Notes under the pieces: generated by a model
What the model was told of the DNA's origin: nothing
What the model saw: the letters and a program-made list of their open reading frames with translations, nothing else
Databases searched by the model: none
Made by a program: the position numbers and the translations under genes
In this document: one piece after another, positions 51,831-58,352 of the stretch
Position numbering within the stretch: position 1 is the stretch's first letter
How the letters are laid out: each line of letters opens with the position of its first letter
Source: Verrucomicrobiota bacterium
GTDB taxonomy: Bacteria > Verrucomicrobiota > Verrucomicrobiia > Verrucomicrobiales > DEV007
Length of the DNA: 58,352 nt
NCBI GenBank assembly: GCA_020630975.1
Contig: JAHDID010000038.1
Span: 1-58,352, forward strand
Direction of reading: 5' to 3'

Positions 51831-54800
51831 ATGGACCCAATTCTGAATCTCTTCGAAGGCTTTGAAGTATGCCACCTCGATGAATGGCGTGAATGGCACC
51901 GCCGCTGCTGGTTTTTCTGGCTGTTTATTTTTCTCTTCTCACTCATCCTACTGGGAGCGTTTGGAGCTCTGCTCTACATGATGCTCTACCCAGCTTGGGA
52001 TCGCCTAACTGGCCGCGAGTCGACTGGCTCGAGCACAGACGGTAGCGGAGCCACATCCGGTAGTGGTAGCACTGGAAGCAGTAATGCGGCAGGCATCTCC
52101 GCAGGAGCTACCAGCAGCGCCACAGCAGCAGGAGCCTCCGCCGCCACAGGAGACGATCTCACTCTGCGAGACAGTATCGACGCCGATATCGCTGCTAAAC
52201 TCAAAGCCGACGGCATCGACAGCTACACCAAGCTAGATGGCCTAGACGATGCACGCCGCCTCGAGCTCGCCGCGAAGTACGGCATCCCAGCCACCGCACT
52301 CGGCCTCGCAGCAGACGATCTCGCCCAGCGTGATGGGATCGATGCCGATACGGCAGCCAAGCTCAACGCCGCTGGTATCTACAACTTTGACCAGCTCGAT
52401 GGTCTCGACGATGCCGCCCGTGCCGAGCTCGCTGCCAAATACGGCCTACCCGGCGCAGCCCTAGGCCTCCACTCGGACAAAGTCGACGACCTCACCGAGC
52501 GCGATGGCATCGACGTGCACACCGCCGCCAAGCTAAATCAAGCTGGCATCTACAACTTTGATCAACTCGATAGCCTAGATCAGGCAAAAGCCGCTGGGAT
52601 ATCAGTAAAATACGGCATCCCAGCCGCAGCTCTCGGCCTCGCCACTGCTGGTAACTACGACAGCGCAGACGAGACTTGGGAATACCAGAAAGACAGCTCG
52701 TCCGATGGCGACGGCGATCGTGACTATGGCTTTGCTGCCGACGGCGGCGCTGCTGGAGCAGGTGCCGATGTCGACGAGTGGCCACGCATCCCGACAGAGG
52801 CGGAGATAGGCGCCCGCGCCACCGAACTCAGCCAATGGCGCGCCGGTAAAGGTATCGACGCCACCCAGGAGGATGACTGGCACCTAGGCGAGCGAGAGCT
52901 CTACATGAACGCTTGCGAGCTAGACGGCTCTCCGGATCGCCTCGCTTTCTACGACGGCGGCAGAAGCCGCAGCGCTATCGACGGCGTATCAGACGACCAT
53001 GCTGCAGAGCTCAGTCGCCTCGGCTACCCTAGCGCAGCAGCTCTGGCCGCTATGACCGCTGCAGACAAAGCTCAGGTGCAACGCTGGTTCGATGCTCGCG
53101 GCAAAGACTTCGATCTCGATGCCGCTATCGCTAGTGCACAGTCACAGGTGGATGCGGAGGCATCCGCCGCCACAGCAGGATTCGCTGGCGAGTCCGTCCA
53201 TGCCGATGATGACTTTGGCGTGCTCTACTCCAGCAGACCCGACCAAGTAGACGATCTCACCGAGATCTCCGGTGTCGGCGAAGTCATCGAAGGTCGCCTG
53301 AATGATGATGGGGTTTACCGCTTCAAGCAGATCGCAGGCTGGTCCGATGCCAATGCCCTCGCTTTTGGCAAAAAACTCGACTTCCCAGGCCGCATCGAGC
53401 GCGAGGAGTGGATCCCACAGGCCCAGCGTCTCGCCCAGATGGAAGAGGAGCGCGCCAATCTCGAGCCCGAGCCGGAGCCAGAAAACAAGCCAACCCTAGA
53501 CGACTACGCAGGTCTCGACGCCCAGTATGCGGGCGAAGATGTTCGCACCGACGAGGATCTCGGCGTGCTTTTCCAGGCACAAGCCCACTGCGAAGATGAC
53601 CTGACTCAGATCAAAGGTATCGGCAAAGTGCTCAACAAGACTCTCAACGATCGCGGCGTCTATCGCTTTCAGCAAATCGCAGATTGGAATGAATACAACG
53701 TCTGGTCTTTCAACCAGATCATCGCATTCCCAGGCCGTATCCAGCGCGATGAGTGGATCGCTCAAGCCGCAGAGCTCGCTCCTAGCAGCAGCTGTCTCGC
53801 CAGCGCAGACGATGCAGCTGGTAGCCAGGATGCCGACCTCGGATTCCTCTACTCCGAGAAGCCCGAGCAGATCGACGATCTCACCGAGATCTCTGGCATC
53901 GGGCAAGTGATCGAAGGTCGCCTCAATGATGATGGTGTCTACCGCTTCCAGCAGATCGCTGACTGGAGCGATGCCAATGCCAATGCTTTTGGTGATCGCT
54001 TCGAGTTCCCAGGTCGCGTCCAGCGCGAGGAGTGGATTCCACAGGCCCAGCGCCTTGCCCAGATGGAAGAGGAGCGCGCCAATCTCGAGCCCGAACCAGA
54101 GCCAGAGAACAAGCCAACCCTAGACGACTACGCAGGTCTCGACGCCCAGTATGCGGGCGAAGATGTTCGCACCGACGAGGATCTCGGCGTGCTTTTCCAG
54201 GCACAAGCCCACTGCGAAGATGACCTGACTCAGATCAAAGGTATCGGCAAAGTGCTCAACAAGACTCTCAACGATCGCGGCGTCTATCGCTTTCAGCAAA
54301 TCGCAGATTGGAATGAATACAACGTCTGGTCTTTCAACCAGATCATCGCATTCCCAGGCCGTATCCAGCGCGATGAGTGGATCGCTCAAGCCGCAGAGCT
54401 CGCTCCTAGCAGCAGCTGTCTCGCCAGCGCAGACGATGCAGCTGGTAGCCAGGATGCCGACCTCGGATTCCTCTACTCCGAGAAGCCCGAGCAGATCGAC
54501 GATCTCACCGAGATCTCTGGCATCGGGCAAGTGATCGAAGGTCGCCTCAATGATGATGGTGTCTACCGCTTCCAGCAGATCGCTGACTGGAGCGATGCCA
54601 ATGCCAATGCTTTTGGTGATCGCTTCGAGTTCCCAGGTCGCGTCCAGCGCGAGGAGTGGATCCCACAGGCCCAGCGTCTAGTCCAGCTCGAGTCCGAGCG
54701 CGCCAATCTCGAGCCAGAACCGGAGCCAGAGAACAAGCCGACTATGGATGATTACGAGGGCTTCGATGTGAAGTACCCTGGCGAGGACATCCGCACCGAC

Positions 54801-55388
54801 CAAGATCTAGGTATCCTCTTTCAGTCCGAGGCCAACTGTGCAGACGACCTGACCAAGATCAAAGGCGTCGGCAAAGTGCTAAACAAGACTCTCAACGATC
54901 GCGGTGTCTTCCGCTTCCAGCAGATCGCTGATTGGAATGAATACAACGTCTGGTCTTTCAACCAGATCATCGCATTTCCAGGTCGTATCCAGCGCGACGA
55001 GTGGATCAAGCAGTGCGAAGAGCTAGCTCTGACCAGCCGCTGCACCAATGTCGGCGCAGCAAGAGTCACTAGTGAAGATCTCGACGAAGTGATCTACAGC
55101 GAATTCGAAGGCGAAGACGTGGAGATCCGTCCACCATTCGGCATCGTCTACAAGAGCGCCCCTGCCAACCCAGACAATCTCCAAGATATCTGGGGAGTCG
55201 GCCCCGTGCTCGAGAAAAAGCTACACGACTTCGGCGTGTATCGCTTCAAGCAGATCGCCAACTGGCCAGACGACGCCATCGACGAGTTTCAAGAGCAGCT
55301 CAGCTTCCCAGACCGCATCCGTCGCGATGACTGGGTAAGCCAGAGTGAACAGCTCGCTCGCGGTGAGAAGCCGAATAGGAAGAAGTAA
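51831..55388 (+). CDS. Membrane-anchored repeat protein of helix-hairpin-helix modules
   Basis: This 1185-residue protein has one membrane helix near residues 26-50 (CWFFWLFIFLFSLILLGAFG), a Ser/Gly-rich linker and three short HHH-like repeats at about 104-265 (LTLRDSIDADIAAKLKADGI, LAQRDGIDADTAAKLNAAGI). A middle acidic part follows, then seven longer modules starting near residues 472, 589, 681, 797, 889, 1004 and 1115. Each has DDLTxIxGIGxVxExxL, a YRFxQIAxW helix and FPGRIxRDEWI, as in the COG3743-type DNA-nuclease-like HHH domain. Modules alternate between two subtypes. A 624-bp tandem duplication (copies near 53490 and 54114) is almost identical. A strong terminator follows. HHH modules usually bind DNA, which would be odd for an exported one. 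Confidence 0.85.
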   Translation: MDPILNLFEGFEVCHLDEWREWHRRCWFFWLFIFLFSLILLGAFGALLYMMLYPAWDRLTGRESTGSSTDGSGATSGSGSTGSSNAAGISAGATSSATAAGASAATGDDLTLRDSIDADIAAKLKADGIDSYTKLDGLDDARRLELAAKYGIPATALGLAADDLAQRDGIDADTAAKLNAAGIYNFDQLDGLDDAARAELAAKYGLPGAALGLHSDKVDDLTERDGIDVHTAAKLNQAGIYNFDQLDSLDQAKAAGISVKYGIPAAALGLATAGNYDSADETWEYQKDSSSDGDGDRDYGFAADGGAAGAGADVDEWPRIPTEAEIGARATELSQWRAGKGIDATQEDDWHLGERELYMNACELDGSPDRLAFYDGGRSRSAIDGVSDDHAAELSRLGYPSAAALAAMTAADKAQVQRWFDARGKDFDLDAAIASAQSQVDAEASAATAGFAGESVHADDDFGVLYSSRPDQVDDLTEISGVGEVIEGRLNDDGVYRFKQIAGWSDANALAFGKKLDFPGRIEREEWIPQAQRLAQMEEERANLEPEPEPENKPTLDDYAGLDAQYAGEDVRTDEDLGVLFQAQAHCEDDLTQIKGIGKVLNKTLNDRGVYRFQQIADWNEYNVWSFNQIIAFPGRIQRDEWIAQAAELAPSSSCLASADDAAGSQDADLGFLYSEKPEQIDDLTEISGIGQVIEGRLNDDGVYRFQQIADWSDANANAFGDRFEFPGRVQREEWIPQAQRLAQMEEERANLEPEPEPENKPTLDDYAGLDAQYAGEDVRTDEDLGVLFQAQAHCEDDLTQIKGIGKVLNKTLNDRGVYRFQQIADWNEYNVWSFNQIIAFPGRIQRDEWIAQAAELAPSSSCLASADDAAGSQDADLGFLYSEKPEQIDDLTEISGIGQVIEGRLNDDGVYRFQQIADWSDANANAFGDRFEFPGRVQREEWIPQAQRLVQLESERANLEPEPEPENKPTMDDYEGFDVKYPGEDIRTDQDLGILFQSEANCADDLTKIKGVGKVLNKTLNDRGVFRFQQIADWNEYNVWSFNQIIAFPGRIQRDEWIKQCEELALTSRCTNVGAARVTSEDLDEVIYSEFEGEDVEIRPPFGIVYKSAPANPDNLQDIWGVGPVLEKKLHDFGVYRFKQIANWPDDAIDEFQEQLSFPDRIRRDDWVSQSEQLARGEKPNRKK
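53434..54681 (+). repeat. 624-bp tandem duplication within the HHH-module gene
   Basis: Sequence at offset +624 is almost the same from about 53434-54057 to 54058-54681. The stretch from about 53493 to 54045 appears identical to its partner by eye, with a few substitutions at each end. It equals 208 codons, one A-type plus one B-type module, so reading frame is kept. Confidence 0.85.
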
Positions 55389-55418: not shown

Positions 55419-55449
55419 ACCGTCACCATTCACATGGTGGCGGTTTTTT
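55419..55449 (+). terminator. Rho-independent terminator of the HHH-module gene
   Basis: ACCGTCACCAT - TCAC - ATGGTGGCGGT forms an 11-bp stem with one G-U pair and a 4-nt loop, followed by T6. The stop codon of the convergent gene overlaps the T run. It could also work in part on the other strand. Confidence 0.88.
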
Positions 55450-56731
55450 AGTAATTAGGTTGCCTCAACTTTGGAATGTTTCCTATCCACGTACAGCCCA
55501 TAGCGACGAGCATTGCAATCCAGAACAAACTAGCAATAGCCTCAGAAATACCACCACCATTCATTACCGCGCTACCAGCGGATGCCAACAGCACTAGATA
55601 GAATAAAACGGTTATCGAACCAAACAGGATCTTTCCATACTTTGATGGATTGGTATAAGTCAAAGAAGCAGGCATCGCAGAAAGAGCCAAAAAGGCACCG
55701 GTAAATGAGACGCCTACCGCTCCGATTAACAATCCAGCAAATACCAGAACCAACCCAACAACAAAAGCGCCCCCCACAGCAATGCCCTCTATTTTCTCTG
55801 ACTTCTTCAAAGCAAGGCGAGCCCTCCTATCCATAAGAAGAAACAAGCTGCCAATCCCTGAGGCGAGCCAGACCCACAAAATAAATATAAAATACACCGC
55901 TACCAACGCGGTACTTGCGATTGGGTGAAGTTTTTCCAAAAGGGTTCTACCAACGCGCACACCGACGAGTAGACCAATTACAATTGCCCAACCCGCCTTG
56001 TCTGTAAATCGCTGCATAAAGAAGCAATATTGCAGGTAAGCTCGATAGAACGCCGATCTACTTTTAAAACTCTCAATCAAGCCCTCCCGAGCTGGATCAA
56101 ATTCTGGGTCTAGTCGTAAAGCTTCAGAAAAGTGCTCTTCAGCTTTTGAACTGTCATTATTCTGCAAGGCGGCCCACCCTGCGTTATAATGCGCATAGGC
56201 ATCCTCTGGATTATCTGAAAGCAACCCATCAATCGTCTGCTCCGTATCAGCCATTTTGTTCTGCATACGGAGTACGTGAGCCAACAGATTTCCTGCTGCT
56301 TCATCATCAGCATCTAAAGTTAGAGCAGTGCGTAGTTGCTGTTCTGCATTCGACCACTGATTTTGCTTCATGTAGCAAATCGCTTTCGCTATGTAGCCGC
56401 TGCCATTATCTGGATCTAAGATTATCGCTTGATCTGCCGATTCATGCCCTTGCTTGACCTTATCGAGGTCGATTGATAGTTGAGAATGTAAAGCAAAGTA
56501 ATGCGATTCCTCCGCATCGTACTTTATCGCATTTTCACTCGCTTCAAGAGCCTCTCGCTTCTTATTGCCTTCCATCGAATCAAGCGTGGTTGCCATTCGA
56601 TAATGGGCGAAAGCATTTTCGGGATCTGTAGCTAGCACCTCCATCAATAGTGCCGCTGCTTCATCATAACGGCGAGATGCACAAAGCATCTCCGCTAACC
56701 GCATTTTATCGGCTGATATCTCGTCACTCAT
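55448..56731 (-). CDS. TPR-domain multi-pass membrane protein
   Basis: This 427-residue protein has TPR repeats in about residues 1-230 (SRRYDEAAALLMEVLATDP, NDSSKAEEHFSEALRLDPEF). The C-terminal half has about six hydrophobic helices, including VAVYFIFILWVWLASGIGSLF, AFVVGLVLVFAGLLIGAVGV and KILFGSITVLFYLVLLASAG. I recognise no family for the membrane part. Its ATG overlaps the stop of the AAA+ gene by 4 bp (ATGA), so the two proteins are made together. The pair is lower in GC than its neighbours. Confidence 0.8.
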   Translation of the reverse strand: MSDEISADKMRLAEMLCASRRYDEAAALLMEVLATDPENAFAHYRMATTLDSMEGNKKREALEASENAIKYDAEESHYFALHSQLSIDLDKVKQGHESADQAIILDPDNGSGYIAKAICYMKQNQWSNAEQQLRTALTLDADDEAAGNLLAHVLRMQNKMADTEQTIDGLLSDNPEDAYAHYNAGWAALQNNDSSKAEEHFSEALRLDPEFDPAREGLIESFKSRSAFYRAYLQYCFFMQRFTDKAGWAIVIGLLVGVRVGRTLLEKLHPIASTALVAVYFIFILWVWLASGIGSLFLLMDRRARLALKKSEKIEGIAVGGAFVVGLVLVFAGLLIGAVGVSFTGAFLALSAMPASLTYTNPSKYGKILFGSITVLFYLVLLASAGSAVMNGGGISEAIASLFWIAMLVAMGCTWIGNIPKLRQPNY

Positions 56732-58116
56732 TTCTTTAATCCTAGGTGCTCTAAAACTTCATCATAGAAACCGCTTTGGTTCGCATAGAGCGCATAATTT
56801 TTCGCGCTTTCGAACCACTTAGCGGTAGATGGTTTCACTTGTTTTCGTGCTTTTGAAATATCCCGATTAGATACAGGAACAATCTCTCCAGACTCCATCG
56901 CAACCTCCAATGCGGCTTCGATTGCTCGATCAAAAACAGCCTTAATATCAGCTCCTGAATAGCCATTGGTTTTCTTTGCTAACCCTTCGACATCCAGATT
57001 GTGAAGAGGCTTTCCTTTCGACATCACCTCTACTATTTCTTTACGAGCGGGTTCATCAGGGGGAGGAACAAATATCAATCGATCGAATCGACCAGGCCTT
57101 AAGAAGGCTGAATCGAGATGCCATGGCGCATTAGTAGCGCCCAAAACGAGGACCTCCTCGTTATTACTTTGATCACCATCAAGTTCAGAGAGGAATTGAT
57201 TAATCAATGTCCTAGCAGCAGACCCACGCATATCCCTCCGGTCCGCAGCCAAAGCATCAATCTCGTCAAAAAATAAAACGGAAGGCTTCGAGGAGCGGGC
57301 TAGTTCGAAAATCTCGTGCAACTTCTGCTCGCTTTTACCAATCCACATCTCAAGAATCTGATGTAAGCCGATAGAGAAAAAATTTGCATTTATTTCGCCC
57401 GCAGTAGCCTTGCTAATCAATGTTTTTCCACAACCAGGAGGACCATAAAGAAGGACTCCGCCGCCTGCTTTCTTACCATAAGCTTCGAAAATTTCTTTCT
57501 GTTGCAGAGGTAACAGAATCTTCATTCGGATAGCTTTTTTCACTTCTTCCATCCCTCCGACATCTTCAAATCCGATGTCTGCTTTCTGCAAAAAATCTAG
57601 CCGGAGATCATCGAGGCTGTCAGAGTCATCATCATCTTCTTGATCACCGTAGGCACCGCCTTGCCAAGAGTTCGCTGACGCGAGAGTTGGTGTGCTTGTC
57701 TTTGGAGGAGGGGAGCCACCCGCCTGCTCTATACGCTTCAATAAATTAACGTCTACTAGCTCAGGGTCGAGAGAAATAGCTTTATCATACCGCTGCCTAG
57801 CTACTACACCATTCACCTCCTTCAGGTGCAACTTCGCTGATAACAGAAAGGCATCACCAGAATCAGGATGCTCTTCACACAGCGCATCTAGGCGTAGAAT
57901 AGCTTCAGAGACCTTTCCTGAAAAATCGAGTGCTCGAATATAACCTAATTTTGCAGGCAGGCTAGACGGCTCAACTTTTAAAGCTGCTTCAAATGTTTCC
58001 GCAGCTTCCTCCCCTATAAAATTTTCTAACAATGCATCACCAAGCATTAGCAAAAGAGGCAGGTTATCTGGTGAAACAGCGACTGCTTTTCTTAGGGAGT
58101 CAAGATTTTCAGACAT
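56728..58116 (-). CDS. TPR-AAA+ ATPase (Vps4/CDC48-like)
   Basis: This 462-residue protein begins with TPR repeats (about 1-125), an acidic linker (EDDDDSDSLDD near 160-170) and a classical AAA+ domain. Walker A GPPGCGKT is at 225-232, the pore-loop-like LEMWIGKSEQ near 255, Walker B LFFDEIDAL at 281-289, sensor 1 GATNAP at 326-331 and LRPGRFDR with two Arg fingers near 340-346. A C-terminal KPSTAKWFESAKNYALYAN resembles the tail of Vps4/katanin. ATG 58116 is chosen, since the longer reading would translate antisense of an HHH repeat fragment. It overlaps the TPR-membrane gene. Low GC marks the pair as acquired. Confidence 0.88.
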   Translation of the reverse strand: MSENLDSLRKAVAVSPDNLPLLLMLGDALLENFIGEEAAETFEAALKVEPSSLPAKLGYIRALDFSGKVSEAILRLDALCEEHPDSGDAFLLSAKLHLKEVNGVVARQRYDKAISLDPELVDVNLLKRIEQAGGSPPPKTSTPTLASANSWQGGAYGDQEDDDDSDSLDDLRLDFLQKADIGFEDVGGMEEVKKAIRMKILLPLQQKEIFEAYGKKAGGGVLLYGPPGCGKTLISKATAGEINANFFSIGLHQILEMWIGKSEQKLHEIFELARSSKPSVLFFDEIDALAADRRDMRGSAARTLINQFLSELDGDQSNNEEVLVLGATNAPWHLDSAFLRPGRFDRLIFVPPPDEPARKEIVEVMSKGKPLHNLDVEGLAKKTNGYSGADIKAVFDRAIEAALEVAMESGEIVPVSNRDISKARKQVKPSTAKWFESAKNYALYANQSGFYDEVLEHLGLKK

Positions 58117-58165
58117 ACCTCGGAAGATATAATAGATACAGCAAGATCCCAACGAGAAATCGCTT

Positions 58166-58222
58166 ATCATCTCATTCCCAGGTCGTATCCAGCGCGATGA
58201 GTGGATCGCGCAGGCCGCAGAG
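58166..58222 (+). repeat. Stray fragment of the HHH-module repeat
   Basis: The stretch CATTCCCAGGTCGTATCCAG and the bases following it match the end of an HHH module (as near 53726-53780 and 54960-55010) with only a few changes. It encodes FPGRIQRDEWIAQAAE. It stands alone, just upstream of the AAA+ gene's N-terminal region and next to the 3' end of mpl. Confidence 0.9.
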
Positions 58223-58278
58223 CGCCGCACCAATCACTGCTGCACTAATCGCTGCCGGCCTACCTGGATGATGTCCTG

Positions 58279-58352
58279 TTACAAAGCCGCCAGCAGTTTG
58301 TCGTGGATGCCACCGAAGCCGCCATTCGAAAACACGATGACCACATCATCGT
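58279..58352 (-). CDS. mpl: UDP-N-acetylmuramate tripeptide ligase Mpl, C-terminal end
   Basis: The last 23 codons read VIVFSNGGFGGIHDKLLAAL and then TAA, which matches the C-terminus of Mpl (SNGGFGGIH.KLL), the peptidoglycan recycling ligase. The rest of the gene lies outside the window. MurC-type proteins lack this ending, so Mpl is favoured, but only 72 bp are available. Confidence 0.7.
   Translation of the reverse strand, partial: DDVVIVFSNGGFGGIHDKLLAAL

Follow-up and report, generated by a model that had tools for sequence, protein, structure and literature searches.

The adjoining genes A and T form a two-gene unit that is old and occurs in several verrucomicrobial families, with relatives in Actinomycetota. 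A encodes a TPR-AAA protein and T a TPR protein with predicted membrane helices. The explanation that best covers mechanism and origin jointly is that the two proteins are a membrane-tethered threading unfoldase pair and that the copy described here was transferred; taken whole, we regard it as evenly poised between right and wrong. The window, the whole 58,352-nucleotide stretch analysed, is contig C24 of genome G000 (7.14 Mb in 158 contigs), and its relevant features are listed in Table 1.

Table 1. Features of the A-T locus and its surroundings (positions in the window).
Feature	Position	Strand	Evidence
Neighbouring HHH-repeat gene (outside the unit), apparently complete and convergent with T	51831..55388	+	Pfam HHH_5, G009 relative
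Hairpin with T run, between HHH gene and T	55419..55449	.	Read from sequence; terminator by eye only
T, 427-aa protein; TPR part of 13 helices, followed by 5-6 predicted membrane helices	55448..56731	-	Pfam, model, hydropathy, alignment
ATGA overlap, A stop and T start	56728..56731	-	Sequence
A, 462-aa TPR-AAA protein	56728..58116	-	Pfam, alignment of relatives, structure model, motif counts
HHH-repeat relic between A and mpl	58166..58242	+	Match to HHH gene repeats
mpl 3' end, upstream of A, same direction	58279..58352	-	Rest on contig C67

The first-pass annotation had described two genes coupled through an ATGA, and both do lie on the minus strand with that overlap. The start of A is most likely the ATG at 58116 and not the TTG at 58233 listed by the ORF finder, because CCGAGGT precedes the ATG and the resulting N-terminus aligns with those of relatives; the TTG falls inside the HHH relic. 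Pfam, run on the longer TTG-start frame, reported AAA (3.1e-41), AAA_lid_3 and TPR_19, in agreement with the earlier reading of A as an AAA+ ATPase with a TPR front. In the structure model (mean pLDDT 84.6, pTM 0.59) the N-terminal TPR occupies helices at 2-131 and a low-confidence linker 140-163, followed by a single AAA domain with its lid and a C-terminal tail, KPSTxKWFESAKN.

Walker A and B, RPGRFDR and the sensor-1 asparagine do not vary among the 29 aligned A proteins, and the arginine fingers are kept in 29/29 rows. The pore-loop position holds an aromatic residue, then I or M, then G in every one of the 29, aligning with MWFGES of Cdc48 D2, and most of the tail is invariant across the same rows. 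With these motifs, lid 3 and the aromatic pore loop, A classes by sequence as a predicted classical AAA ATPase of the Cdc48 group. The best matches in a PDB sequence search were the D2 domains of Cdc48/p97. The tail had originally been called Vps4-like; this did not hold up, as neither an MIT nor a Vps4 C-terminal domain was reported for A by Pfam at E<=0.01. Nor did Pfam find a peptidase domain.

The description of the partner as a multi-helix TPR protein proved correct: T has a TPR domain in Pfam, and its model (pLDDT 90.2) shows a TPR arm plus six long C-terminal helices. As the model has six such helices and the hydropathy plot five peaks, we predict five or six membrane helices. The alignment of relatives shows a loop conserved at D301/R305/L308. 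A six-helix topology would place both the C-terminus and the charged loop near residues 300-310 on the cytoplasmic side. With helix ends assigned by hand, a clear positive charge is seen in just one of the predicted cytoplasmic loops, and the charge of the remaining loops is too low to indicate a side of the membrane. A fold search with T gave TPR proteins among the 50 matches listed, and the membrane part is therefore unclassified. No NCBIfam model reached its own cut-off for either protein, and the Pfam models that reached theirs name only the AAA and TPR parts.

The simplest reading of these two proteins together, based on sequence and models, would be a membrane-docked threading motor. A would assemble into a ring of AAA domains, probably a hexamer like that of its Cdc48/p97 relatives. 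T would sit in the inner membrane and tether A there, with the TPR domain and tail of A binding the cytoplasmic TPR arm of T. ATP hydrolysis would then pull substrates through the A pore, so that membrane or membrane-associated proteins may be extracted, unfolded or remodelled; the class of substrate and the direction of movement are as conjectural as the hexamer and the A-T contact.

Several known systems resemble A. Cdc48/p97 (VCP) is like it in the motifs and pore loop of D2, but has an N-domain and two tandem AAA domains, whereas A has a single AAA domain with TPR in front in place of the N-domain. A is thus not Cdc48/p97 proper, and it scored 243 bits with the CDC48 model against a cut-off of 803. 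Msp1/ATAD1 is a single-AAA extraction motor at the membrane, anchored by its own N-terminal helix. A would likewise be a single-AAA motor at a membrane, but it begins with TPR helices and seems to rely on T for anchoring. FtsH, another AAA motor, carries its own membrane helices; unlike FtsH, A has no peptidase domain, and its 206 bits with the FtsH model fall below the cut-off of 600. The FtsH of G000 itself scores 814 bits with that model; over the AAA part, it and A share 39% identity. Vps4 has a helical N-domain, and Vps4/CdvC shares with A this arrangement of a helical N-domain and a single classical AAA domain; by domain content, on the Pfam result above, A does not class as a Vps4/ESCRT ATPase, and it scored 191 bits with the CdvC model (cut-off 650). 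Among bacterial relatives of Cdc48, to which A also belongs, Cpa is a Cdc48-like actinobacterial protein described as a proteasome interactor in the title of the paper and as sharing an operon with two further genes in one of its section titles (PMC6017811). The terms TPR, tetratricopeptide and Verrucomicrob* do not occur in the main text of that paper. A literature search of titles and the beginnings of abstracts returned nothing on the A-T pair.

The distribution of the pair was determined in a sample of 387 genomes drawn from the phylum, with four candidates scored per genome. The A profile matched in 39 genomes at E<=1e-60 and in 27 at E<=1e-140, so that only a minority of the phylum has the pair. 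All but two of the 27 strong matches are near full length, the two beginning at profile positions 181 (G379) and 174 (G207). A T match at E<=1e-60 stands next to A in 25 of these 27 genomes, G050 and G053 being the exceptions, and in none of the 387 did T reach this threshold where A was absent. Weak T matches without A came from G237 and G415 (about 1e-26, TPR part only). The first-pass annotation had proposed a physical complex from the TPR on both partners, and the conserved adjacency of the genes supports a physical partnership. The genomes of genus g4 listed in the search are without the pair; it occurs in records of Haloferula rosea and Roseibacillus persicicus strains. In a set of 56 genomes, G000 and its relatives, an AAA match at E<=1e-20 was found in all 56, often FtsH-like. 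T matched in 43 of them at E<=1e-5, where the weaker matches can be general TPR matches, and 32 reached 1e-50.

We fetched 90 A loci, of which 82 were left after eight duplicates were dropped. T lies directly downstream of A in 65, divergent from it in two (L178, L179) and directly upstream in two (L126, L127), and is absent from 13. Three gene orders of A and T therefore occur, the surroundings vary across the phylum, and no third gene family common across the phylum sample was found. In the 21 loci fetched within the genus, an OmpA-like gene is directly upstream of A in 12 and rplS directly downstream in 15, both names coming from a scan.

The first reading had suggested looking for the pair in other phyla, and some Actinomycetota records do have the same two-gene layout. 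A matched a record of a plasmid collection from Nonomuraea with 98% coverage and 41% identity, and the next frame there encodes a relative of T (BLASTP 3e-18, from a single comparison). In five annotated records from Streptomyces and Actinomyces oris the AAA gene is followed directly by the second gene, with an overlap in four; a sixth record carries no annotation. A tblastn search with one Streptomyces T found eight Streptomyces records, and a related form of the unit is carried on Streptomyces plasmids. Pfam confirmed TPR in three of the Actinomycetota T proteins, and two of them have three and four hydropathy peaks. The membrane part of T in Verrucomicrobiota was not recognised by a mixed Actinomycetota profile (hhalign probability 0.3%), and the sole Actinomycetota T with similarity to it is that of Nonomuraea, a weak match of 18 bits. 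Of the plasmid records, 311 matched the window's A at E<=1e-30, and the match spans at least 80% of the protein in one of them. With the window's T, no plasmid or phage match was found at 1e-8.

Within G000 the pair is unusual in composition, as hand counts in the first-pass annotation had indicated. GC is 45.6% for 55448-58116 against 55.7% for positions 1-55400 of the window and a background of 54.3% (SD 2.8; 700 overlapping windows covering 400 kb of G000), and in 200-bp bins the step coincides with the gene boundaries of the pair. Windows as GC-poor as the pair number 6/700 when overlapping and 2/140 when non-overlapping, over those 400 kb. GC3 of A (0.380) is below that of all 207 comparison genes of at least 250 aa, and five of the 207 are as low as T (0.437). 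Against 54 genes of 380-520 aa, the codon usage of A is farther from that of the genome than all 54 and that of T farther than 53, with one as far. The pair lies 10 GC points below its surroundings, whereas in 26 loci measured in relatives neither A nor T is more than 2.5 points below the flank, and many are above it.

The phylogenetic position of the pair also differs from that of other genes in the genome. In the FtsH tree G000 and G024 form a fork with 100/100 support; rows G004 and G036 of this tree, whose frames were chosen by length, are probably wrong frames (22-27% identity), and in the later FtsH comparison G004 was left out and G036 not included. GlyRS of G000 is nearest to G024 (88%, next 84%), as is mpl (82%, next 77%); outside G000 the names GlyRS, betaCASP, LysM and FtsH rest on similarity, apart from a scanned set. 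A and T of the two genomes are 64% and 41% identical, and in both the A tree and the A+T tree G000 branches outside the genus rows. AU tests rejected a G000+G024 clade (p 0.0066) and a position of G000 among the 18 genus rows (p 0.0074), although the choice of these clades followed inspection of the first trees and the tests are weaker for it. With Dayhoff recoding the AU values were 0.053 and 0.078, without rejection at 0.05, and KH and SH gave 0.036-0.044. The mean identity deficit of G000 against the genus rows is 3.4 points for mpl (11 rows), 6.5 for betaCASP (8) and 8.9 for FtsH (14), compared with 12.8 for A and 17.3 for T (18 rows each). The deficit of T is partly a matter of rate, because T also varies more within the genus.

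We found only one A-T pair in G000. Its contig C79 carries a block of betaCASP (78%), LysM (42%) and OmpA-like (33%) genes, then a 105-aa ORF and GlyRS, without the pair; rplS is elsewhere, on C1. GlyRS and a relative of the 105-aa ORF also adjoin in G024. The OmpA-like gene matches its counterpart weakly and had no Pfam hit at 1e-5, so the claim that this is the old site rests mainly on betaCASP and LysM. It seems probable that the pair was acquired from a related, lower-GC lineage outside the genus and settled between mpl and the HHH gene. The native pair at the genus's commonest site would have been lost, making the acquired copy a replacement.

The first-pass annotation had regarded the module as a foreign unit inserted into, or beside, the HHH-repeat gene. 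Insertion into the gene was rejected: it looks complete, with 75% identity to its G009 relative up to residue 1181 of 1185, in a match that crosses one stop codon, the end of the G009 frame. The stray copy of the repeat is real. Its 57-bp core (58166-58222) agrees at 53/57 bases with each of two repeats inside the HHH gene (53718 and 54342), and the gapped match over 58166-58242 scores 97 against a maximum of 30 in 200 shuffles. The annotation had also suggested looking in related strains for an empty site where the HHH gene is joined directly to mpl. Neither HHH nor the pair lies beside mpl in 16 mpl loci of relatives, including that of the nearest, G024, and therefore no empty site was found. 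An apparent synteny with G024 through DUF1501/DUF1549-like genes was dismissed, as those genes match other window paralogues better. In G044 and G047 an HHH gene adjoins an AAA paralogue that lacks T, and in G040 the HHH and AAA genes are about 6 kb apart; as these are the only three HHH matches in 90 A neighbourhoods, we treat the proximity of HHH and AAA genes as chance or lineage-specific. What is foreign is thus at most this copy, odd in composition and discordant in its tree with FtsH, GlyRS and mpl, and not the kind of module, in which T so regularly adjoins A. By the comparison of place and composition in relatives that the first-pass annotation had set as its own refutation, 'inserted' survives for the G000 copy but not for the module in general.

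That the G000 pair was acquired from another lineage and the native copy lost is more likely than relocation with fast evolution, but it is not proven. A native pair that moved to a new place and then evolved fast with AT drift, without transfer, is rather unlikely in our view, though it has real points in its favour. The FtsH branch of G000 is also long (0.28 against a median of 0.14), so fast evolution could contribute to the odd placement of the pair; the recoded AU tests do not reject at 0.05, and the frequent change of surroundings across the phylum makes relocation common. The low GC, however, affects the pair and not the neighbouring HHH gene (GC3 0.65), GlyRS and mpl of G000 show no unusual divergence from their G024 counterparts, and the unrecoded AU tests speak for a foreign position. 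Counted against transfer is that neither a donor lineage nor a tRNA or long flanking repeat at the pair was found. Foreign DNA joined at a contig end by misassembly is very improbable. The pair does lie at a contig end in an assembly of 158 contigs, and C24 ends inside mpl, 187 bp from the start of the stray HHH copy; but C24 and C67 share an exact 55-bp overlap inside mpl, this mpl is nearest to that of G024, and the relic between A and mpl matches the HHH gene at the far side of the pair.

The mechanism has its own competitors. An assembly chaperone or scaffold, anchored in the membrane and moving subunits of a larger machine without threading, would suit the TPR on both proteins, the lack of a protease domain in A and the lack of a phylum-wide third gene to name a substrate, but the pore-loop aromatic and arginine fingers, kept throughout as in threading AAA proteins, make it unlikely. 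The A loci without T, 13/82, count against the threading pair itself. A Vps4/ESCRT-like remodeller that disassembles a membrane polymer, for instance a PspA/Vipp1 coat, is quite improbable: the single classical AAA domain, helical N-domain and conserved tail would fit, but the domains that Pfam did not report and the PDB matches to Cdc48/p97 D2 do not. We give scarcely any credence to an anti-phage system of the IetAS kind. PADLOC IetA models match A at up to 111.5 bits, yet the NCBIfam model IteA_antiphage gives A 100 bits against a cut-off of 510 and gives G000 FtsH 119, so the hit on A reflects general AAA similarity. The AAA partner in IetAS is a peptidase, while T has TPR and predicted membrane helices, matches only a TPR model in PADLOC and has no match in phage records.

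The AAA machine usually associated with bacterial membranes, FtsH, is a protease. If the membrane-tethered threading pair is correct, Verrucomicrobiota have an AAA motor that lacks a protease and is paired with a membrane protein of its own, the two genes having stayed together through many genome rearrangements, and this would be a route of membrane extraction or remodelling unnamed in the libraries searched. More speculatively, and on balance doubtfully, the pair may be a bacterial equivalent, as yet unnamed, of Msp1 or of p97 recruited to membranes. It would be an autonomous threading unfoldase docking, TPR to TPR, on a dedicated polytopic receptor, common to Verrucomicrobiota and Actinomycetota and sufficiently self-contained for one lineage to exchange its own pair for a foreign one.

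The pair of adjoining genes, A (TPR and AAA) and T (TPR and predicted membrane helices), also occurs in records with other taxon titles. L160, titled Kiritimatiellae, carries a pair whose position in the A+T tree is close to the Verrucomicrobiales rows that represent the genus of the window; this record is either a mislabelled or mis-binned MAG or a case of transfer. L165 is a MAG record under the title Akkermansia muciniphila, and its pair sits on a long branch. At three loci (L162, L168 and L225) the first T gene is followed by a second, diverged one.

Relatives of the HHH repeats occur in other settings (table). In G047 and G044 an HHH-repeat-related protein is the convergent neighbour of an AAA paralogue without T, and a Pfam scan of these two proteins at 0.001 found no named domain; in G040 the distance is about 6 kb. 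The HHH-module genes of L148 and L149 have neighbours that, from their sequence starts, we take to be ribosomal protein genes.

HHH-related genes at other loci
Feature	Locus and position	Genome
HHH-repeat-related protein	L119:4680-5699	G047
HHH-repeat-related protein	L120:5227-6363	G044
HHH-repeat-related protein	L121:3168-4148	G040
Gene with HHH module	L148:3392-4243	
Gene with HHH module	L149:4007-4717	

The stray HHH-like piece between A and mpl scores equally against the HHH gene copies at 53718 and 54342. Within that gene, near-identical units spaced 624 bp apart (53718-54965) suggest a recent internal duplication.
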